A model generated the notes under the pieces. That model did no database searches, was not told where the DNA came from, and saw only the letters and a list, made by a program, of their open reading frames with translations. Position numbers and translations under genes: made by a program. Shown here piece after piece: positions 3,084 to 38,625 of a stretch of DNA of 64,000 bases. The number at the start of each line of letters is the position of its first letter. The stretch's first letter is position 1. Source of the DNA: Candidatus Competibacter sp. (GTDB lineage: Bacteria; Pseudomonadota; Gammaproteobacteria; Competibacterales; Competibacteraceae); assembly GCA_029624815.1 (NCBI GenBank), contig JARSSH010000048.1:1-64000 (forward strand), in the 5' to 3' direction.

Positions 3084-4034
3084 TCATCCTTCGCTTTCCC
3101 CCACATCGTTCCGGCGAAGTTTTTCACGGTGGTCGCCCGCCGTTACCAGCGCCTCGAAACCGGCGACCACATCCAGCAGTTCGGCGGTGATCGCCTCCTG
3201 ACGCTGCTGGCGATAGGCGGTGTTCAATTCCGCCAAACGGTCCGCGATGTTGCGCTCGGCGGCCTGCATCGCCAATAGACGGCTGGCGTGTTCGCTGGCC
3301 AACGACTCGGCGCAGGCGCGGAACAGTTCCACGAACAGCCATTCTTGCAGCAGGGCGGCCAGCAGATCGGCGCGACCGACCGCGTAACCGGGCAGGGAAC
3401 GCGACGGCACGGACGGCTCGCGGCGCAGGGCATCCGGGTCGAGCGGCAACAGCCGAGTACTGGCGGGTTCGTGGCTTTCGCTACCCCGATGGCGGTTGTG
3501 GAATAGCAATACCTGGGTCACACCCTCCGTGCGCCATTGCTCCAGTAACGGCAGTATCGGCCGCATGGTCTGGTGGATGGCGCTGGCGGCGGCCGGCGTA
3601 TAAAACCGCTGCTCGGGGGCCAAACCCTGCTCTTCCAGCGCCGCTACCTGGCGCACCCCGACCGCCAGCACCCGACAGATCCCCGCCGATTCGCGCAGCG
3701 TTTCGGCCACATACGCCGCGAGCACTTCGTTAAACCGGCCGCACAAACCGTGATCAGAGCCGAACACGACGGCGCCGGTGACCGGCTTGTCGCCGGGTGG
3801 CGCGTCGTCCAGCGGCCCCACCAATCCGACGCCGCGCGCTCCGGCCTCCGCCGCCAGATCCTCCAATACCACCGCCAACCCGCGCCGCACCGCACGATCG
3901 TAGTCGATCAGCGCCACGCCCGCCCGCTCGTACTGATGGATGCTCACCGCCGCCAGCGCCTTCATGGTCCGCACGATGGATCGCAACTCCCCGACCGTGG
4001 CGAGGGTATGACGTAGCGCCTCCAAAGCCGGCAT
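3084..4034 (-). CDS. atpG: N-ATPase gamma subunit
   Basis: Central rotor stalk of the N-type F1Fo ATPase, coupling catalysis in alpha3beta3 to the c ring. The 316-residue protein has the two terminal coiled-coil helices typical of gamma: an N-terminal helix with ELRSIVRTMKALAAVSIHQY and a C-terminal helix containing AAERNIADRLAELNTAYRQQ. The central Rossmann-like part holds FGSDHGLCGRFNE, the conserved gamma motif. It is the last gene of the operon, starting 4 bp after atpA, which is the usual N-ATPase order. The ATG at 4034 (MPALEALRHTLA) is preferred over one 14 codons upstream that would overlap atpA. Confidence 0.93.
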   Translation of the reverse strand: MPALEALRHTLATVGELRSIVRTMKALAAVSIHQYERAGVALIDYDRAVRRGLAVVLEDLAAEAGARGVGLVGPLDDAPPGDKPVTGAVVFGSDHGLCGRFNEVLAAYVAETLRESAGICRVLAVGVRQVAALEEQGLAPEQRFYTPAAASAIHQTMRPILPLLEQWRTEGVTQVLLFHNRHRGSESHEPASTRLLPLDPDALRREPSVPSRSLPGYAVGRADLLAALLQEWLFVELFRACAESLASEHASRLLAMQAAERNIADRLAELNTAYRQQRQEAITAELLDVVAGFEALVTAGDHREKLRRNDVGESEG

Positions 4035-4038
4035 GGAA

Positions 4039-5559
4039 TCACTCGGGTCGAGCAGCGGCGAGACCGCCGACCGCATGCCGCGCTACCGTCAGCAGCGCCT
4101 CCCGGTCGGCGTCGCTCAGCGGCTCCCCAGCGACGATCCGCTGGCCAATGTCGGAACAGCGGACGGCGACCTGCTCCCGCACCGCCCGTTCCGCCGCCGC
4201 CACCCGCTCCAGCGGAATCCGGTCGAACACGCCCTCGGTCACCGCCAGCAGCGCGGCGATCTGATCAACGACCGGCAGCGGCTGGTACTGCGGCTGCTTC
4301 AGCACTTCCCGTACCCGATGGCCGCGTTCGATGGTTCGGCGGGTGGCCGCATCCAAGCGGGTACCGAAACGAGCAAAGCTTTCCAACTCCTCGAACTGGG
4401 AATAGGCCAACCGCAGTTCGGCGGCAATGGCGCGATAGGCCGGCAATTGGGTTTTGCCGCCCACTCGCGATACCGACTGACCGACATCGACCGCCGGCAG
4501 AATGCCTTTTCGGGCCAAGTCCGGGGACAGGACAATCTGGCCGTCGGTGATCGAAATCAGGTTGGTGGGAATATAGGCGGCGACGTTTTGCGCCTCGGTC
4601 TCGACGATCGGCAGCGCCGACAGCGAACCGCCGCCCTGCTCCGGGCGTAGCCGGGTGGCTCGTTCCAACAGTCGTGAGTGCAGATAGAACACATCGCCGG
4701 GATAGGCTTCCCGCCCCGGCGGACGGCGCAGCAACAACGACAGTTCCCGGTATGCTTGGGCGTGCCGGGTCAAATCGTCGTAGACGATCAACACGTCGCG
4801 GCCCTGGGCCATGAACCATTCCGCCATGCTGGTGGCGGCGTAGGGGGTGAGCACTTGCAGGCCGGGCGGATCCTCGCCGGCGGCCACCACCAGAAAAGTG
4901 TAGCGCAAGGCATCGCGCCGCCGCAGATCGTCGAGCACTCGCGCCACCGCCGTGCCGCGCTGGCCGATGCCGCAGTAGACGCAGATCACGTTCTGATCGG
5001 CTTGGTTGAGGATGGCATCCACGGCGAGCGCGGTCTTGCCGGTCTGCCGGTCTCCCAGGATCAATTCCCGCTGGCCCCGACCGACCGGGATGGCGGCATC
5101 GATCACCTTGATGCCGGTGGCCAGGGGCACGCTGACCGGCGCCCGGTGCATGATGGCCGGCGCCGCCCGTTCCAGCGGCCAGCGTTCGGCCGTAATGACC
5201 GGACCGGCTTCGTCCAACGGTTCGCCCAAGGCATTGACCACCCGCCCCAGCAGAGCGGAACCGACCGGCGTATCCACCACCCGCCCGGTACGCTCGACCA
5301 GATCGCCGGCCTTGAGGCCGCTGCTGTCGCCGAGCAGCACCACGCCGACCTCATCGGGGTCCAGGTTGAAGGCGATGCCGAGAATACCGTTGGGGAAACG
5401 CACCAGTTCCATGGCCTCGACGCCCGGCAAGCCGTTGACCTGGGCAATGCCATGGCCGAGCCGCTCCACCACCCCGGTTTCCACCACATTGACCGCTGGC
5501 CGATAGGCGGCCAGCACCGTATCAAAGGGCGTGAACAGTTCAGGATCGGGCATGGTCAT
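4039..5559 (-). CDS. atpA: N-ATPase alpha subunit
   Basis: Non-catalytic nucleotide-binding subunit of the F1 head (about 506 residues). Seen: N-terminal beta-barrel (about 20-90), nucleotide domain with Walker A GDRQTGKT near residue 170, the [12 protein letters not shown] and [12 protein letters not shown] segments, Walker B region VLIVYDDL, and the helical C-terminus. The motif [20 protein letters not shown] with the following [20 protein letters not shown] is classic alpha. The proposed ATG at 5559 overlaps the end of atpF by 20 bp; ATG 5553 is an equally usable start. The overlap indicates translational coupling within the operon. Confidence 0.96.
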
Positions 5560-6322
5560 TGGCCACGATGGCTGCTTGGGCATTCAACACTTGGGCGAGC
5601 GCTTCGCCGAAACCGTCGAGATAGCTGTCCAGGGTCCAAGCCAGACGGTGACCGGGCATCTCCAGGATGATGCCGCAAGCGGCGTTCGGATCGTGATGGA
5701 AGTCGAGCGATGTTTCGATACCCAGCAGTGAGTGCAGCACCGCCCGCCAGTCTTGTTGTAGCGCCGTGTCCAGAGGAAAGGCGGTGGTGACGGTGCAGCC
5801 GCCCAATGCGGCCTGCGCCAGCGCCGCGCGTTCGCTCGCATCCAGGGCGCGCAGCCGCGTCAGCAGCGGTTCGAGCATCCGTCGCTCCAGATCGGCGTCC
5901 GCCAGTTCGCGCAAGGCGTGGCGGAGGGCTTCGGTCAAGCGGCGGACGGCTTCCCGTTGCAGCGCGCGCTGGCCTTCCGCCTGCTCCCGCCGCCAGGTCG
6001 CCAACCAGTCGGCGCGCTGGATCTCCACCTCGCGCCGCGCCGCCGACAGCCACTCCTCGCGCCGCGCCGCGACATCCTGACGAGCCTCGGCCAACCATGC
6101 CTCGCGTTGGGCTTCCAGCGCGGCCTGTCGCTCTCGACAAGCTTGCGCCGCGACTTCGGCCTGCTGGGTCTTGGCCTGAGCCGCTTCCAGAGCCGCCGCG
6201 ATGTTCTGTTGGCGGGCGGCCATGGCATCGAGCACCGGACGATACAAAAACCGCTTCAGCAGCCACACCAGCAGCAGGAAATTGACGATCTGGGCGGCGA
6301 CGGTGAACCAGTCGATCTGCAT
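5540..6322 (-). CDS. atpF: N-ATPase b subunit with a delta/OSCP-like C-terminal part
   Basis: Peripheral-stalk subunit, 260 residues, clearly longer than a standard b subunit (about 156). It begins with one membrane helix ([20 protein letters not shown]), continues as a long charged coiled coil (about 30-150), and ends with a segment (about 185-255) with [20 protein letters not shown] and later [12 protein letters not shown] that resembles the C-terminal domain of the delta subunit. The operon has no separate delta gene, so this tail may provide the link to the F1 head; that is inference from resemblance and gene content. The gene starts just after atpE (2-bp gap). Confidence 0.9.
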
Positions 6323-6324
6323 GG

Positions 6325-6603
6325 CTACTGGCCGGCGGCGGCGATGAAGTGGTTCCAGAACGGGTTGGCGAAAATCAGGATCATCGATACCACGAAGCAA
6401 TAGATGGCGGTGGATTCAATCATCGCCAGACCGACGAACAGGCTGCGGCTCAAGGTCGCGGCTTCGTCCGGCTGCTGGGCGATGGCGGCCAGGGCTTGGA
6501 CCACCGCCCGACCTTCCGCCAGGGCGGGGCCGATGGTGCCGATGGCGATGGTGAAGCCAGCGGTGACAATCGAAACAAGGCCAATGAGAAGGGCGGCATC
6601 CAT
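6325..6603 (-). CDS. atpE: N-ATPase c subunit (ion-binding rotor ring)
   Basis: A 92-residue two-helix hairpin that forms the membrane rotor ring. Helix 1 runs about 4-43, the polar loop is AQQPDEAA, and helix 2 runs about 52-80. Ion-site residues are visible: Glu30 in helix 1 (GPALAEGRAV) and Glu63-Ser64-Thr65 with Tyr68 in helix 2 (MIESTAIYCF). ES/T plus Tyr is the signature of Na+-type sites, and a carboxylate in both helices is a hallmark of the N-ATPase family. Whether the ion is Na+ or H+ cannot be settled from sequence. The ATG at 6603 is used; the longer frame to 6687 runs into atpB. Confidence 0.95.
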   Translation of the reverse strand: MDAALLIGLVSIVTAGFTIAIGTIGPALAEGRAVVQALAAIAQQPDEAATLSRSLFVGLAMIESTAIYCFVVSMILIFANPFWNHFIAAAGQ

Positions 6604-6619
6604 GGGGAAAGATCCTCCG

Positions 6620-7354
6620 TCAGGGTTCGTTGATTTTCCTCTCGCCTCCAGAGGGCGAGGAGTCGGGGGTGCGGGATGAAGTCTCATGCGCCGCCGTGGC
6701 CGCCGCCAGATAGACCGTGGCGAGCACCGCGAAGATATAGGCCTGGATGATTCCGGTCAGCAGCTCCAGCGCGTGCATCAACACCGGGAAGAACAGCGGC
6801 GTAATGATTAGCAGAATCGCTCCCACCACGGCGCCACTCATCACGTTACCGTAAAGCCGGACCGCCAGCGCCAAGGTGCGGGCCAGCTCGCCGATCAGAT
6901 TCAAGGGCAGCATGATCGGGGTCGGCTCCAGGTAGTCTTTCAGATAAGCGCGCCACCCCCGCCGTCGGATACCGAACAGCGGCACCGCGACCAAGACGCA
7001 TAGCGCCAGCGCGGTGGTGGTGGACAATGAGCCGGTGGGTGGTTCGAAACCAGGGACGATGGCCAACAAGTTGCAGGTGGCGATGAAAACGAACAAGGTG
7101 CCCACGAACGGCAGATAGGGCACGAAGTCCCGCCGGGCGATATCGCGGATTTGGCCCTGGATACCCTCGACCAGCACCTCCAGCAGGTTCTGCCAGGGCG
7201 ACAGCGTGGCGTCAGTGGCCAGCCGGCGGGTGATCCACCGGGCCAACAGCACCAGCAGCGCCATGACCAGCCAGGTAAACAGCAAGGTGGCGCTGATGCG
7301 GATGAAGCCAAATTCGAACCAGACGGTTTGATCGGGGCTGATGGTCATGCTCAT
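6620..7354 (-). CDS. atpB: N-ATPase a subunit
   Basis: Membrane stator subunit that forms the ion half-channels beside the c ring. The 244-residue protein has about five hydrophobic helices. The essential stator Arg is in LAVRLYGNVMSG within GELARTLALAVR, and the following helix is rich in hydrophobics (GAILLIITPLFFPVLM). The start overlaps the end of atpR by 4 bp (ATGA). The last roughly 18 residues (SSRTPDSSPSGGERKINEP) do not look like a subunit: they are encoded by a GC-rich palindromic repeat at 6638-6660, so the reading frame was probably extended by insertion of that repeat. Confidence 0.95.
   Translation of the reverse strand: MSMTISPDQTVWFEFGFIRISATLLFTWLVMALLVLLARWITRRLATDATLSPWQNLLEVLVEGIQGQIRDIARRDFVPYLPFVGTLFVFIATCNLLAIVPGFEPPTGSLSTTTALALCVLVAVPLFGIRRRGWRAYLKDYLEPTPIMLPLNLIGELARTLALAVRLYGNVMSGAVVGAILLIITPLFFPVLMHALELLTGIIQAYIFAVLATVYLAAATAAHETSSRTPDSSPSGGERKINEP
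6638..6660. repeat. REP-like palindrome inside the 3' end of atpB
   Basis: CCTCTCGCC and GGGCGAGG are nearly complementary and enclose a short loop; the flanks TTTT... and ...AGTCGGGGGTGCGGG resemble dispersed repetitive palindromes common in GC-rich gammaproteobacteria. It forms the atpB/atpE junction and codes the aberrant AtpB tail. No second copy was noticed in this window. Confidence 0.5.
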
Positions 7355-7635
7355 GACTCCGGCGTCGGTCGCAAATAGCGTGTCAGCACGACTCGCGCCG
7401 CAATGAAGGTCAGCAGCGCGATCCCCAGCCGGATCAGGTTGCGATCCGGGCCGAGAATCAAATAGAACCCGGTCAGACTGACGGCCAGCCGCAGGACGAA
7501 ACTACCGGTCACCCACAAGGCGGGATGAGGATGACCGGGCAATTGTCGCAGGGTGAACCACAGCCCGGCGAAATAGAACAGGCCCAGCAGCCATCCACCC
7601 AACGCGGCCAACAACCCCAGCCCATTCTCAATCAT
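7351..7635 (-). CDS. atpR: N-ATPase-specific membrane protein AtpR
   Basis: A 94-residue protein with three hydrophobic helices (about 5-28, 36-62, 68-88). Helix 2 carries a conserved-type Arg (GSFVLRLAVSLTGFY), proposed in the literature on N-ATPases to face the c-ring carboxylates. AtpR occurs only in N-ATPase operons, so its presence between atpQ and atpB is diagnostic of the family. It overlaps atpQ by 8 bp and atpB by 4 bp. The precise role, probably assembly of the rotor ring, is not established by anything visible here. Confidence 0.88.
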   Translation of the reverse strand: MIENGLGLLAALGGWLLGLFYFAGLWFTLRQLPGHPHPALWVTGSFVLRLAVSLTGFYLILGPDRNLIRLGIALLTFIAARVVLTRYLRPTPES

Positions 7636-7989
7636 GGGGTTCCTGTTTTTTCAACCATTGCCAGGCGGCGGTGCAGCCAAGCACCAGCCCCGCGACCAGC
7701 AGCGTCAAGGTCCAGGAATGCCGGCCGGCCCAGTTCCGGTCGAGCCACAGCCCCAGCAGCGCGCCCAAAACAGCCGGCAGCGCCACCGTCCAGCCGACGA
7801 TGCCGAACAGGCCCAGGCCGAACCAGACGCTGGGCCGATCCGTCTCGCGCGCGCGCAGCTTACGCGCCGCCTTGCGTCCCACCTGTTCCGGCAGCGAATC
7901 GGGTAGCGGGGATGAAGCGGTCGGCAGGCTTTTGACGTTGCCACTTTCCTCTTTTTTTCCCTCGGAAGGATCAAGGCTGTGAGGTTGAG

Positions 7990-7993
<4 letters not shown>
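7628..7993 (-). CDS. atpQ: N-ATPase accessory membrane protein AtpQ (AtpI-like)
   Basis: A 121-residue protein with a polar, charged N-terminus (about 1-55) and two hydrophobic helices (GLGLFGIVGWTVALPAVLGA and a second near 92-112). This is the arrangement of the AtpI/AtpQ family, which in F-type operons helps assemble the c ring and may bind Mg2+. The position after atpC and before atpR is the standard N-ATPase order. It overlaps atpC by 4 bp. The N-terminal extension is low in similarity to anything I recognise. Confidence 0.85.
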
Positions 7994-10264
<2,271 letters not shown>

Positions 10265-20610: not shown

Positions 20611-21124
20611 GGCGGCGGACACCGGTCAACTCCACTCAACGGGTCGCATCGCCACCACACTCTCCGACGCGCCTGCTCCAACAGGTCCGAATAGGCATAA
20701 GCGGTCACCGGCGGTGGCGCCAAAGGCAAAGCGCTGACTATCCACTTCACGGAGCTGGGCGACACTGAGGGACATGGAGCGGTTTCCTGATTCGATGCCG
20801 TGGCAAAACAGGTACGGCGATTCGCTGAAGTCGAGTTTTCGCCAGTATAAACACCGAAGGAGGCTTCCCGCATCCACAATCCGGCCCGCATCCCGAGATC
20901 CATGCGCCGACCGCGGCGAACCGATCAAATCACCCAATTCGAACCACCGTACCCAAATTCGGGCGTGCATCGATGTTTGCCAGCGTCATAAAAAGGCTAT
21001 ACTTGCTTATCTATAAGGAAAGGGCGTTGTAAGGGAGGGCGGCACGGTTTCCAAAACGGTGTCTTCCTGCAAAGAGAGCGAATGCACCTGTGCTGTAATG
21101 CCTTGAAGCGTGGAGCTTTTTATC
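20611..21124. other. Divergent intergenic region between aroK and the PASTA gene
   Basis: About 514 bp without a supportable gene. It must hold the aroKB promoter (minus strand) and the promoter and leader of the PASTA protein gene (plus strand). A roughly 120-nt leader precedes the PASTA gene and includes an imperfect hairpin around CACGGTTT...AAACGGTG (about 21040-21060). Composition is less GC-rich than the neighbouring aro genes. Confidence 0.5.
20977..21003 (+). promoter_or_regulatory. Candidate promoter of the PASTA protein gene
   Basis: TTGCCA (20977-20982) and TATACT (20998-21003) are 15 bp apart, slightly short for sigma70. The predicted transcript would have a leader of about 115 nt. 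Confidence 0.35.
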
Positions 21125-24100
21125 ATGAGATCAAAAACCGGTTTTTTTTCCACGTCGTTCCTGCTGATTTTTCTAGGCTTTTTTCTCATTTATCCACGGA
21201 TCGGCGCGGCGGCGAATGTTGCTGTCCCGAACGTGGTCGGCCAGACCGAGGCGACCGCCAAGGCTACAATCACGGGAACGTGTGATCTCAGCCCTGACGA
21301 CGATGGATGCCTATCGGTTGCCGTCACCTATGCCTTCAGCACCACCGTCCCCGCCGGCACAGTCATCAGCCAGAATCCGGGGCCAGGGCTCGCTCCCGCC
21401 GATACCACGGTCAACATCGTGGTATCCAACCGACTTACGGTGCCAGACGTGGTCGGCCAGCCCCAGCAAACCGCCACGCTGAACATCACCAATACCTGTG
21501 TGCCCGGCAATTCCGCCCAATGCCTGAAAGTCGGAACCGTCACCCAACAGGGCAGTTCCACCGTTCCCAAAGGCAACGTCATCAGCCAGGATCCAGCCGC
21601 TGGTTTTCTGACTCCCGCCGGCTCCGCCGTCAACCTGACCGTATCCTCGGGCCCCCCGTTGCTTGCCGTTCCGAACGTGGTCGGGCAAACCCAACTGGAT
21701 GCCGAAATTCAGATCAAAAACACCTGCGTGACCGGCACGACTCAGTGCCTGACCGTCGGCAACGTGATCTTCCAGACCAGCGAAACCGTCGCCGCCGGCT
21801 CCGTCATCAGCCAGGATCCTCCCGCTGGTTTCCAAGCCGCCGTTGGCGCCGCCGTTAGCCTCGTGGTGTCGTCGGGAAAGGCGCCGGTTGCAGTACCCAA
21901 CGTCGTCGGCCAAGCCCTGGCCAGCGCCAAGACCACTCTTGAGGGTGACGGCTTTAAGGTCGGCACCATCAGCTTGGTTGCCAGCGACACCGTCCCGGCT
22001 GGCATCGTCACCAGCCAGAATCCGGCCGGCGGTGCGCTGGTCGCGCCCGGCTCCACCGTTAACCTGACCATTTCCTCCGGTCCCGCGGCGCCGGAAGTGC
22101 CGCCGGTAACCCCGGGCGACATCACGGTTCCCAACGTGGTCGGGCTGACCAAGACTGGCGCCAGCACGGTCATCCGCAATTCCGGGCTCAACGTTGGGGC
22201 CACCATCCCGAAATTCGACGACAAAGTCCCTGCCGGCACGGTCATCGACCAAAGCCCGGCGGCCGGTTCCAAGGTGGCCGTCGGCACCGCCGTCAACCTG
22301 ACCGTATCCCAGGGTCCGGCCGGGGTCGTCACGGTCCCCGACGTGACCGGCCAACCGGAAAGCGTGGCGCAATCCAACCTGCAAAACGCCGGACTCACCA
22401 TCGGCGCCACCACCAAACAGCCCGATCCCACCATGCAAGCCGGCAATGTCATCCAAACCACGCCGGCGGCCGGTCAGCAGGTCGCGGTCGGCACGGCGGT
22501 CGATCTGGTGATCTCCGAGGGTTTTTCCGGACCGCAACAGTGTGTCGTGCCCGACGTGACCGGCCAAACGGTCGAGAATGCCGGCGAAATCCTGTTCGCA
22601 ACCTGTCTGTCGGGGATCGGCTCCATCACCGTGCAGCGCGACAGCACCGTGCCGGCTGGTCTAGTGGCCGCGCAGTTCCCCGCCGCCGGCTCGTTGATCG
22701 GCTACAACACCACCGTGAACGTGATCGTCTCTTCCGGCTCGCAACCGCCGGTCGTCACCCCGCGCGTGGTCGGGCTGACCCTGCCCGACGCCACCGTTCT
22801 GCTCGAAAGCGTCGGTTTAAAGGTCGGTTTCGTCTCCCACCAGACCAGCAACACCATCAAGGAAGGTCGCATTATCAGCCAAAACCCGCTGATGACGGCC
22901 TTGGCGCCGGTCGGCTGGGCGGTCAATCTGGTGGTATCGCTGGGTCCGGTGCCGGAAGATCCGGGCGCCAGCCCGCAAACCCAGGTTCCGGACGTGGCGA
23001 ATCTGACGCTGGCGGCAGCCACCGCCAAGCTGATCGCCGCCAACTTGCGGGTCGGCGTGGTCTCCAACCAGCGCAGTTCGGACGTACCCGCCGGCCAGAT
23101 CATCCGCCAAAATCCGCAGCCGGAAACGACCGTGCCGGTCAACAGCCGGGTTAATTTGGTGATCTCCTTCGGTCCCTACGCGTATGGCCTGCTCAGCGGA
23201 CCGGCCTATATCACCAACTACTACGGCAACACGGTGTCGATCCTGAATCCGGATATCAATCAAGTCGTCGATAACATGTCGGCGGGCATCAACAACAGCG
23301 GCCCCAGCGGCATCGCGGTCAGCCCGGACGGTACCCGGCTGTACGTCGCCAATCGCCCGCAGTACGGTCGGCGCGCGGGTACACTCTCGGTCATCGATCT
23401 GACCGAGCGCCGGGTGATCGCCATCATCCCGGTCGGTGTGGCGCCGCTGGGCGTTGCCGTCAACCCCACCGGCGAACGGGTGTTCGTGGCCAATGAAGGC
23501 AGCTTTAGCCTCTCGGTGATCGATGCCACCACCAATAAGCCGTTCATCGACCTGAACGTGCCCAATCTGGCGGCGAACCCCTACCCACGCGGCGTGGCGA
23601 CGCACCCCAACCCCACCATCCCGCTGGTGTACGTCACCAACCGGACGGTCAACTCGTTCTCGGACGATGCGACCAATCCTTATCCCGATCAGTGCGACGG
23701 GCTGGTATCGCGGCCCCCGGTGAACGTCAATCCGGACCAGTGCGTCGGCTCGCTGTCGATCTTCGACGCGGATCTGAAGACGCAGGTCGGCTCGGTGGCG
23801 GTCGGCTGGGCGCCGGAAGGCGTGGCGGTCCATCCCGACGGTATGCTGGTGTACGTGGCCAATTCCGGCGACCGGACCGTTTCGGTCATCGAAACCGTGT
23901 TCAACCGGGTAGTCGGCGTCATCACGCTGGACAATTTCGGCGGTGCGCCGCAACCGCTGGTGCCCCGTGGCGTCGCGGTCAGCCCGGACGGCAACCGGCT
24001 GTACGTCACCGATGGCGCCGGCAATCGCCTGTTCGTGATCGACACCACCGCCAACCATAGCGTGGTGGACATCGTGCCGGTCGGCAAGAAACCCTACGGC

Positions 24101-24619
24101 GTCGCGGTCAGCCCGGACAGCAAGCGAGTGTATGTCGCCAACTCCAACGACAATACGGTCTCGGTCGTTGAGGCGATCACCAACCGGGTAATCGCTACAG
24201 TGCCGGTGGTCTCGGGAATCAACGCCAACGGCCAATGGGCGCCGTGGGCCTTTGGTCGATTCGTGGGACCGCTGGCCACGGTGGCGACGCCGACCTTCGA
24301 TCCACCGGGCGGAAACTTGGCCGTATCCGTCAAGATCAGCTCCACAACATCGGGCGCTTCTATCCGCTACACCATGGATGGCAGCACGCCCACATCGACC
24401 CATGGGACGCTACTCAACAATGGCGGTTCCGTCTCGCTGGCTGGGCTGAACAGCACCTCCGTGGTTCTGAAGGCGATTGCTTTCAAGGACAACTGGGCGG
24501 ATTCCGCAGTTGCGGAAGCGATCTATTCCAACGACTCCACGCAGCTTTTACCCGGTGGAGGTAGCAATCCACCGGGCTTCGACCCAAGTGGGGGTGGGAA
24601 AAGCCCTGGTGAAGAATGA
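21125..24619 (+). CDS. Exported nine-PASTA-repeat protein with YVTN beta-propeller and chitobiase-C-like domain
   Basis: A 1164-residue exported protein. Residues 1-30 are a signal peptide (hydrophobic core FLLIFLGFFLIY, end GAAA). Nine PASTA-like repeats run from about 34 to 680, each starting with VPxVVGQ-type words and ending in xNLxVSxGP. Repeats 1-3 carry a Cys pair about 10 residues apart (NTCVTGTTQCLTV), suggesting disulfides; repeat 7 also has Cys. About 685-1045 is a beta-propeller with YVTN/SMP-type repeats (GIAVSPDGTRLYVAN, GVAVSPDSKRVYVANSNDN). About 1055-1135 resembles the chitobiase/hexosaminidase C-terminal domain (IRYTMDGSTPT). The tail is Gly/Pro-rich. PASTA repeats normally bind peptidoglycan-like ligands in Gram-positive kinases and PBPs; no kinase or PBP domain exists here. 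ATG 21125 has GGAG 9 bp upstream. A surface or cell-wall binding role is inferred. Confidence 0.9.
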   Translation: MRSKTGFFSTSFLLIFLGFFLIYPRIGAAANVAVPNVVGQTEATAKATITGTCDLSPDDDGCLSVAVTYAFSTTVPAGTVISQNPGPGLAPADTTVNIVVSNRLTVPDVVGQPQQTATLNITNTCVPGNSAQCLKVGTVTQQGSSTVPKGNVISQDPAAGFLTPAGSAVNLTVSSGPPLLAVPNVVGQTQLDAEIQIKNTCVTGTTQCLTVGNVIFQTSETVAAGSVISQDPPAGFQAAVGAAVSLVVSSGKAPVAVPNVVGQALASAKTTLEGDGFKVGTISLVASDTVPAGIVTSQNPAGGALVAPGSTVNLTISSGPAAPEVPPVTPGDITVPNVVGLTKTGASTVIRNSGLNVGATIPKFDDKVPAGTVIDQSPAAGSKVAVGTAVNLTVSQGPAGVVTVPDVTGQPESVAQSNLQNAGLTIGATTKQPDPTMQAGNVIQTTPAAGQQVAVGTAVDLVISEGFSGPQQCVVPDVTGQTVENAGEILFATCLSGIGSITVQRDSTVPAGLVAAQFPAAGSLIGYNTTVNVIVSSGSQPPVVTPRVVGLTLPDATVLLESVGLKVGFVSHQTSNTIKEGRIISQNPLMTALAPVGWAVNLVVSLGPVPEDPGASPQTQVPDVANLTLAAATAKLIAANLRVGVVSNQRSSDVPAGQIIRQNPQPETTVPVNSRVNLVISFGPYAYGLLSGPAYITNYYGNTVSILNPDINQVVDNMSAGINNSGPSGIAVSPDGTRLYVANRPQYGRRAGTLSVIDLTERRVIAIIPVGVAPLGVAVNPTGERVFVANEGSFSLSVIDATTNKPFIDLNVPNLAANPYPRGVATHPNPTIPLVYVTNRTVNSFSDDATNPYPDQCDGLVSRPPVNVNPDQCVGSLSIFDADLKTQVGSVAVGWAPEGVAVHPDGMLVYVANSGDRTVSVIETVFNRVVGVITLDNFGGAPQPLVPRGVAVSPDGNRLYVTDGAGNRLFVIDTTANHSVVDIVPVGKKPYGVAVSPDSKRVYVANSNDNTVSVVEAITNRVIATVPVVSGINANGQWAPWAFGRFVGPLATVATPTFDPPGGNLAVSVKISSTTSGASIRYTMDGSTPTSTHGTLLNNGGSVSLAGLNSTSVVLKAIAFKDNWADSAVAEAIYSNDSTQLLPGGGSNPPGFDPSGGGKSPGEE

Positions 24620-35258: not shown

Positions 35259-36266
35259 TCAGACCCCTTCCGGCTTTGGATCGCGCGCCAACAGATTTTC
35301 CACCGCCCGACGTGGGCTTTGGCCGTGGTATAGCACCGCATTCACTTGTTCGGTGATCGGCAATTCCACGTTATACCGCCGCGCCAGCCGCAGGGCTTCC
35401 CGCACCGTCGCGGCGCCCTCCACTACTTGGCCGATGGCCGCGCAAGCCGCCCCGACGCTATCGCCCCGGCCGATCGCCAAGCCAAACCGCCGGTTGCGCG
35501 ACTGGTCGTCGGTGCAAGTCAGCACCAAGTCGCCGATACCAGCCAGCCCCATGAAAGTTTCGCGTTGGCCACCCACCGCCACACCCAACCGCACCATCTC
35601 CGCCAACCCACGCGTGATCAGCGCCGCCCGTGCGTTGGCTCCGAAACCCAGACCGTCAGCGATGCCAGCGGCGATGGCCAGTACGTTCTTGACCGCGCCG
35701 CCTAGTTCGACACCGATCACGTCGCTGCTGGTGTAGGCGCGCATGTTGGAACCATGCAGCACGGTCGCCACCCGGCGAGCATGTGCCGCATCCCAGGAGG
35801 CGACCGTAACGGCGGTCGGCAAGCCGCGGGCCACCTCCATCGCGAAGCTGGGGCCCGAAATCACCGCCGTTGGCCAGTCCAGGCCGAGCGCCTCCAGCGT
35901 GACCTCATGCAAAAACCGGCCGCCACCATGCTCCAGGCCCTTGGTGGCCCAAGCGAAACCAGCGCCCACCGGCAACAGCGGTCGCAATTGGGCCAAAATC
36001 GCCCCGTAGGCATGGCTTGGCACCGCCACCAGCGCCAGATCGACGCCGGCGAGCGCTTCGGCCAGATCGGCGCCGGCGCTCAAGCAGGACGGGAACGGCA
36101 CACCGGGCAAATAGCGACGGCTCTCCCGCTCCCGACACAAGGGCGCGACTTCTTCCGGATCGTGCCCCCACAAGCGGACATGGTGCCCGTTGCGCGCCAG
36201 CAGCAACGCCAACGCGGTGCCCCAGCTTCCCGCTCCGAGCACGGCAACCCGCGCGGCAGCGGGCAT
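35259..36266 (-). CDS. gpsA: NAD(P)-dependent glycerol-3-phosphate dehydrogenase
   Basis: Makes sn-glycerol 3-phosphate from DHAP for phospholipids. The 335-residue protein has the Rossmann start VAVLGAGSWGTALALLLARN, the WATKGLE and ISGPSFAMEVARGLPTAV segments, and the catalytic Lys region GVELGGAVKNVLAIAAGI with GLGFGANARAALITRGL. The start is 3 bp after the secB stop, the conserved secB-gpsA order. Confidence 0.97.
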   Translation of the reverse strand: MPAAARVAVLGAGSWGTALALLLARNGHHVRLWGHDPEEVAPLCRERESRRYLPGVPFPSCLSAGADLAEALAGVDLALVAVPSHAYGAILAQLRPLLPVGAGFAWATKGLEHGGGRFLHEVTLEALGLDWPTAVISGPSFAMEVARGLPTAVTVASWDAAHARRVATVLHGSNMRAYTSSDVIGVELGGAVKNVLAIAAGIADGLGFGANARAALITRGLAEMVRLGVAVGGQRETFMGLAGIGDLVLTCTDDQSRNRRFGLAIGRGDSVGAACAAIGQVVEGAATVREALRLARRYNVELPITEQVNAVLYHGQSPRRAVENLLARDPKPEGV

Positions 36267-36269
36267 CCG

Positions 36270-36752
36270 TCAGGAAGTGGTTGGAGCGGAGGAGGACGGG
36301 GAAGCAGCAGCCTGCGCCTGCTGTTGCTGTAAACGTTGCAGGTAGAGGCTATCGAAGTTGATCGGATTGAGCAGCAGCGCCGGGAACCCGCCCTTGCCGA
36401 TCAACGAAGCCAGCTCCTCGCGGGCGAAGGGAAACAGGATATTCGGGCAGTACGCATGCAGCATGGGGCCCATTTGTTCATCACCGAAACCCCGCAGCGC
36501 GAACAAGCCACCTTGCTGCACCTCAACCAGATAAGCGGTGCGGTCGCCGAGCTTAGCGGTAACCGTCACGGTCAGCGACACTTCAAAAAAATTCTCGGCC
36601 AGCGGCTTGGCGCCGGTTTCCAGGCGCACTTCAGTCTGCGGTTGCCATTGCTCGGTAAAAATCATCGGGGAATTAGGGGTCTCCAGCGATACATCCTTCA
36701 GATAAATTTTCTGAATTTCGAACTGCTGGGGAAGCTGTTGCTGGTCGCTCAT
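36270..36752 (-). CDS. secB: Protein-export chaperone SecB
   Basis: A 160-residue tetrameric chaperone that delivers unfolded preproteins to SecA. Seen: QIQKIYLKDVSLETPNSP-like N-terminus (FEIQKIYLKDVSLE), the acidic FFEVSLTVTVTAKLGDR sheet, and YCPNILFPFAREELASLIGKGGFPALLLNPI-type C-terminal region. A Gln/Ala/Ser-rich tail follows. The ATG at 36752 (MSDQQQLPQQ) is the family start. Confidence 0.97.
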   Translation of the reverse strand: MSDQQQLPQQFEIQKIYLKDVSLETPNSPMIFTEQWQPQTEVRLETGAKPLAENFFEVSLTVTVTAKLGDRTAYLVEVQQGGLFALRGFGDEQMGPMLHAYCPNILFPFAREELASLIGKGGFPALLLNPINFDSLYLQRLQQQQAQAAASPSSSAPTTS

Positions 36753-36844: not shown

Positions 36845-37211
36845 TTACGGCGTAAAGACCGGACGCCAACGGCCTACCAGGGTATCCCCTGGAAAAGCGG
36901 CTCGCCGCCGGATCGATGGAGCAACCGCGCGGGTTCGGTTGCAGTCGCGCAACAGCCGGGCCAACTCACCGCGCCGCTCCAGCTCGAACAAATCATCGCA
37001 ACCGCCGACATGCCGGTCGCCGATGAAAATTCGCGACACGGTGTGGCGCTCGGTACGTCTGACGATTTCCTCCCACAATCGCGGGTCGCGATTTACATCC
37101 AGCAGTGTGTGAGCCGCGCCCTCGCTATCCAACAGCGCGCGCGCCGACAGTACGGACCATACTCAGAGGCGTATATCGCGATGCGCGCCGCGCCGGGTCT
37201 GGCTGGAACAT
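36845..37211 (-). pseudogene. grxC: Broken glutaredoxin-3 gene
   Basis: The remains of grxC in its conserved place between a rhodanese gene and secB. The C-terminal frame reads LLDSEGAAHTLLDVNRDPRLW and then IFIGDRHVGGCDDLFELERR, clearly glutaredoxin. The active-site part lies in another frame: IAIYASEYGPYCRRAR. The frame changes inside a GC-dinucleotide tract near 37138-37150 and again in a GC tract upstream, before the ATG (37209-37211) that overlaps the rhodanese stop. Two key residues are also gone: the catalytic CPYC is GPYC, and the cis-Pro of TVP is Ser (HTVSRIFI). The C-terminus runs on about 32 residues beyond the usual end. Repeat-tract slippage or assembly error could explain the frameshifts, but not the substitutions. 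Confidence 0.8.
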
Positions 37212-37645
37212 CAGGATTTCTTATTGCGGCTGATCGGCAAGTGGGCCTCCTGCCAGCCCGATAACCCGCCGCTCAGGCTGTGGACGTCGGCAATTCCGCT
37301 CTTTTTGAGCTGTGCGCAAGCCGCCTGGGAAGTGGCGCCGTTGCGGCAGTACACGACGATGGGCTTGTCCTTGGCCTTGGTCAGTTCGCTCAGTCTGTCG
37401 CGCAGAGCGCCGAACGGGATATGGCGCGCCTGCGGAATGTGGCCCTCCTTGTATTCGCCGCCATCGCGGACATCCAGAACCAAAGCATCCTGATCGTTGA
37501 TCAGGCGCAGAGCTTCGGCGGCACTGAGGTTGTTGACCCCGCGCATTTTGCGCAAGACCTCGCCACCGATCAGCATCCCCGCGATGGCGAACAGCGCCAA
37601 AAACAACAGCCAATTCTGTGTGGAAAATTCGATGAAATCGCTCAT
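37211..37645 (-). CDS. Membrane-anchored rhodanese-like protein
   Basis: A 144-residue protein: one membrane helix (about 11-30), then a rhodanese domain with LVLDVRDGGEYKEGHIPQAR and the active-site loop VVYCRNGATSQAA (catalytic Cys about residue 102). It corresponds to YibN-type proteins that precede grxC-secB-gpsA in gammaproteobacteria. The ATG at 37645 is chosen; the codon before it is TTG. The stop overlaps the grxC start (TGATG). Confidence 0.92.
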   Translation of the reverse strand: MSDFIEFSTQNWLLFLALFAIAGMLIGGEVLRKMRGVNNLSAAEALRLINDQDALVLDVRDGGEYKEGHIPQARHIPFGALRDRLSELTKAKDKPIVVYCRNGATSQAACAQLKKSGIADVHSLSGGLSGWQEAHLPISRNKKS

Positions 37646-37666
37646 CAATAATTGCTCGAGGTTCCG

Positions 37667-38280: not shown

Positions 38281-38625
38281 CAGCAATTCCAGCGCCAAAC
38301 CACCGCCACCATCCCGCGCAATACCCACAACCCCATCATGCACCATAAAGCCGACAACGCCTTGTCCGGGAATCTTGCGCATTAGCATAGCTTGATATAG
38401 CGATACTGAGAAGCCACTTCACGACCAGCGGCATAAATGCCGGGTGGCGAAACCAACCGGTCCGGCGTATGATCTTTCGACAAATTTTTCATAATCGCTT
38501 CAAGGGATCGGCGCGCTGCGAACCTACGGCGCCGCCCCATCCCAGACCAGCGCGTTTCAAGCGCTGGCCGACACACCCAATCCGATGACGACCACGACCG
38601 CCCTGAACCAAGGAGGCATTTTTTC

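Follow-up and report, generated by a model that had tools for sequence, protein, structure and literature searches.

The grxC locus

In a Candidatus Competibacter genome, does the gene flanked by a rhodanese gene and secB still encode a glutaredoxin, or has a gene that three of its four congeners carry intact been broken there? The window analyzed here, 64,000 nucleotides of contig 48, belongs to a genome of 3.63 Mb in 70 contigs with a completeness of 99.97%. Along the minus strand, a gene for a small DUF2892-type protein is followed by the rhodanese gene, the glutaredoxin remnant, secB, and gpsA (Table 1), DUF2892 and gpsA being names that we presume from the sequences. Three-frame translation of the minus strand gives IAIYASEYGPYCRRAR in one frame and ARALLDSEGAAHTLLDVNRDPRLWEEIVRRTERHTVSRIFIGDRHVGGCDDLFELERRGELARLLRD in another, the second of which runs on to a stop at 36845–36847; a single open reading frame across the whole glutaredoxin fold is absent. 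The frame-shifted part scores 25.9 bits against PF00462, above the cut-off (stretch 37007–37144), and shares 80% identity with the congener protein across 66 residues, so the similarity is not a matter of chance. Translation, profile score, and congener identity thus agree with the sequence-only reading, which had placed a glutaredoxin-like gene between the rhodanese gene and secB.

The closest counterpart is the class 1 dithiol GrxC (PF00462) of Candidatus Competibacter phosphatis and its congeners, which shares the locus with its rhodanese and secB flanks as well as the 80% identity over the part in which the frame is kept. The window copy differs from it in having two frame changes and in lacking the CPYC motif, the cis-proline, and the stop. 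With a probability of about 0.93, we conclude that the window carries a recently inactivated class 1 (CPYC dithiol) grxC.

Table 1. Genes of the locus and lesions of the grxC remnant, in window coordinates
Feature	Position	Strand	Remark
rhodanese-domain protein, intact	37211..37648	-	upstream of the grxC remnant
grxC pseudogene	36941..37208	-	extent approximate, by homology to congener GrxC; read-through to the stop at 36845-36847
secB, intact	36270..36752	-	downstream of the grxC remnant
gpsA-type gene, intact	35259..36266	-	downstream of secB; name presumed from the sequence
first frame change, one base missing against the three congeners	37190..37191	-	alignment
first active-site Cys (Cys19) of CPYC to Gly, GGT for TGT	37156..37158	-	alignment
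GC-rich run with the second frame change, four bases missing against the three congeners	37133..37146	-	alignment
cis-proline (Pro61) of TVP to Ser, TCG for CCG	37034..37036	-	alignment
congener stop position, here a Cys codon, TGC for TGA	36941..36943	-	alignment

Elsewhere in the window, an F-type ATPase gene cluster occupies 3084–10136 and is, by its gene order, presumably an N-ATPase. A 1169-residue protein encoded at 21110–24619 comprises many VPNVVGQ-type repeat units followed by a propeller-like region that we take to be YVTN-like.

Lesions in the remnant

The lesions were defined by alignment with the intact copies of three congeners, G001, G002, and G003. Two frame changes had been read from the window by itself, and the alignment bears them out as deletions of one and of four bases, the latter at about 37138/37137 with an exact placement that is ambiguous within the GC-rich run. 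Their assignment to GC tracts stands insofar as both runs are GC-rich, but the range given for one of them, 37170–37185, misses the first indel, which lies near 37190. With one and four bases missing, neither indel amounts to a single GC unit simply gained or lost.

The three substitutions had been recognized correctly: the first active-site cysteine is a glycine, the cis-proline is a serine, and the normal C-terminal end is overrun, the congener stop codon having become a cysteine codon. The active site of the window copy reads GPYC, where all 26 intact copies in the family have CP[YF]C, and TVS replaces a TVP whose proline is likewise present in 26 of 26; directly after the lost Pro61, Gln62 is changed to arginine. 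In the alignment used for invariance (33 rows, consisting of 26 intact copies, the window genome, and six genomes without the gene), Cys19, Pro20, Cys22, Pro61, and Gln62 are invariant among the intact copies, and five of the 19 columns invariant in those copies are altered in the window genome (Cys19, Lys32, Tyr36, Pro61, and Gln62). The GGxDD motif, which has a glutathione-side role in glutaredoxins, is retained as GGCDD. A glutaredoxin does not work without its first active-site cysteine and an open frame. The remnant thus has the marks of a pseudogene, with several separate inactivating lesions and an intact orthologue at the same locus in G001, G002, and G003.

State of grxC in the Competibacteraceae

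Named records matching the window SecB are those of Candidatus Competibacter phosphatis, Candidatus Contendobacter, and Candidatus Competibacteraceae. G003 is of the same genus as the window genome, and shared 80-base probes tie it to C. phosphatis SBR_G; by this named congener, the genus is taken to be Candidatus Competibacter. The probes also tie G001 to a laboratory reactor MAG. The comparison with close relatives that the sequence-only reading had proposed turned out in its favor: in three of four congeners (G001, G002, and G003), GrxC is intact at this locus and has both CPYC and TVP. In the fourth, G004, grxC is absent from the locus; the sequence of that genome agrees with the congeners on either side of the gap, as far as roughly the gene start and then from the intergenic region onward.

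The survey covered 37 family genomes, 31 of which have the secB locus (28 of 34 plus G001 to G003). Of these 31, 25 have an intact grxC, one (the window genome) has a pseudogene, and five (G004, G005, G028, G029, and G030) have none; the gene is also absent at the locus of the named record L054 (CTSoil_131). A short recognizable stretch of grxC persists in G029 (1 of 1000 shuffles as good), and L054 gives a weak remnant signal (10 of 1000). Remnants at the loci of G004, G005, G028, and G030 are unsupported, with 104, 8, 151, and 163 of 200 shuffles, respectively, scoring as well. The other losses resemble that in the window in that the same locus is emptied, in G029 down to a short decayed stretch, and differ from it in that the gene is wholly or nearly gone, whereas decay in the window genome is at an early stage.

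In a tree built from gpsA, secB, and the rhodanese gene (33 rows, with stars on 17 of its 30 inner branches), the intact or defective state of grxC needs seven changes for seven defective rows, so that no two defective rows need share one loss. Counting on a tree cannot tell gain from loss, and we read the changes as losses because the locus is shared and the outgroups are intact. Taken together, the gene contents and the tree point to grxC having gone several separate times in the Competibacteraceae. The window gene had been described as a conserved gene in real decay; the decay is upheld by five lesions and intact congeners, but strict conservation gives way to the several losses in the family. 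The decay itself is well supported and of an ordinary kind; the family pattern is modestly interesting. No published glutaredoxin work on Competibacter was found, and among the matches listed nothing was on point regarding grxC loss or pseudogenes in gammaproteobacteria.

Several further observations were made in the course of the survey. L043 (JAAUTD010000018.1, Synechococcaceae cyanobacterium SM1_2_3; our G034) and L053 (JACSSB010000233.1, Phycisphaerales bacterium GAO1; our G004) both have the Competibacteraceae-type rhodanese–secB–gpsA locus and fall inside the family in the tree, and their record titles look wrong because locus type and tree alike place them there. In L101 (G020:C105), an intact grxC stands beside a secB and a gpsA that are both interrupted, and in L048 (G031:C147), the gpsA match falls into two parts, the stretch between them being absent. 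G013, a family member at 1.2 Mb and rated 100% complete, has no match to secB or glutathione synthetase and one Grx match; it is either a strongly reduced genome or an incomplete or mislabelled bin.

Other glutaredoxins of the window genome

One alternative is that grxC could decay because the genome had gained another dithiol glutaredoxin; G029, which lacks grxC at the locus, does have a CPFC glutaredoxin elsewhere. The sequence-only reading had suggested a search of the genome for such a replacement, and the search, which covered members of PF00462, returned no dithiol match besides the remnant. Its sole other match is a GrxD-type monothiol glutaredoxin, which shares the Pfam family with the remnant but, unlike it, is intact, carries a CGFS site, and lies on another contig. 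Furthermore, grxC is broken or missing in six genomes, of which G029 alone has a CPFC-type candidate; the CPFG domain of G005 belongs to a longer fusion protein, and the CGFC domain of G028 sits on a different protein. Replacement is accordingly very unlikely, and a PF00462 dithiol glutaredoxin in this role was not found in the window genome. Separately, L153 and L155 (G028 and G029) encode proteins that begin with YKSVGPDG and carry a CGFC glutaredoxin-like domain at the C-terminus.

Soundness of the assembly at grxC

Sequencing or assembly error, with grxC intact in the organism and the damage made up of GC-rich indel errors, is still less probable. Both indels do fall in GC-rich runs, and either of them alone could be an assembly error; the substitutions would go unexplained in that way. 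The five lesions are not all indel errors because three of them are base substitutions at otherwise conserved sites (two invariant residues and the stop) that are independent of the indels, and sequencing error as the sole cause was rejected on this ground. A frame check of the window against the three congeners, whose filter is insensitive to short genes and leaves grxC itself unflagged in all three, marked 4 of 63, 3 of 32, and 0 of 30 non-overlapping open reading frames of the congener stretches as multi-frame. At the flagged places, the window has a long open frame except at 38385–38581, between an ArsR-type gene and a phosphoglycerate mutase gene, and the places with an open window frame are taken to reflect shadow frames or breaks in the congener sequences. 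We take the assembly to be sound at grxC.

Constraint and timing of the decay

Of sites invariant in the three congeners, 8 of 56 in grxC are altered in the window, versus 27 of 546 in gpsA, secB, and the rhodanese gene together (Fisher p of about 0.011). By a simple count over 66 of the 91 grxC codons, the out-of-frame active-site part being left out, the window-specific changes amount to 6 nonsynonymous codons and 8 synonymous bases. With an assumed neutral share of 0.72, the nonsynonymous share is lower than the neutral expectation (binomial 0.02). Because nonsynonymous changes are fewer than neutrality would give, the branch appears to have been mostly under constraint with grxC decaying late on it, and by these counts the decay must be recent, with a late onset on the window branch.

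Least probable of all is that the 95-residue open frame at 36845–37132 is a new truncated glutaredoxin-derived protein without a redox site, kept by selection: although the frame stays open from a TTG at 37132 and retains GGCDD, the synonymous changes in the remnant are not outnumbered by nonsynonymous ones, and the stretch 37007–37144 is still above the PF00462 cut-off, the frame lacks the first strand, the active site, and the cis-proline, continues into what is intergenic sequence in relatives, gives no Pfam match at E 0.001 when read from its TTG, and occurs in no relative examined.

Ribonucleotide reductase and redox context

Dithiol glutaredoxins classically serve class I ribonucleotide reductase. 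In the window genome, NrdB was not found, and a search for the class III reductase (PF13597, NrdD) gave no match. The sole PF02867 match is the adenosylcobalamin-dependent reductase NrdJ (TIGR02504, 571.5 bits against a cut-off of 399.95), which is followed by a 228-residue NrdJb-like open reading frame that has a TSCPD domain and, at its C-terminus, six cysteines. By these matches, a split class II NrdJa+b is the only ribonucleotide reductase found. The genome also has glutathione synthetase, a CysH-like protein, and thioredoxin, the last with one strong and two weaker matches.

PMC5704485 states that class I reductases are reduced by thioredoxin or glutaredoxin systems, and that the class II enzyme of Stackebrandtia nassauensis, which has a six-cysteine domain equated there with NrdJb, took no electrons in vitro from that organism's own glutaredoxin or thioredoxins; the native electron donor of such a reductase is described as unknown (PMC5704485). 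Because this six-cysteine enzyme accepted no glutaredoxin electrons, grxC is plausibly dispensable in the family. In the window genome, the gene would have become dispensable because the split class II NrdJa+b stands in place of the class I enzyme that a dithiol glutaredoxin classically serves, and because thioredoxin and glutathione would cover the remaining disulfide work.

By this analogy, the class II reductase may explain why grxC can be dispensed with. As a sufficient cause of the loss, it was rejected, since 23 genomes without NrdB keep an intact grxC, which implies that most of these put the gene to some other use. Two of the 37 family genomes, G011 and G017, have class I NrdB, and grxC is intact in both.

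Whether the Competibacteraceae shed the dithiol glutaredoxin repeatedly because their zinc-finger (CRD/NrdJb) class II reductase takes no electrons from it is doubtful, though we consider it a possibility of some weight. The members without grxC appear to live without any CPYC glutaredoxin and yet carry glutathione synthetase. Alone, the window grxC would be one more bacterial pseudogene; in its family, it catches in the act a loss that appears to recur. If the link to the reductase is true, genomes with an intact, a freshly broken, and no grxC would form a natural series in which the native reductant of CRD-type class II reductases could be tested genetically.
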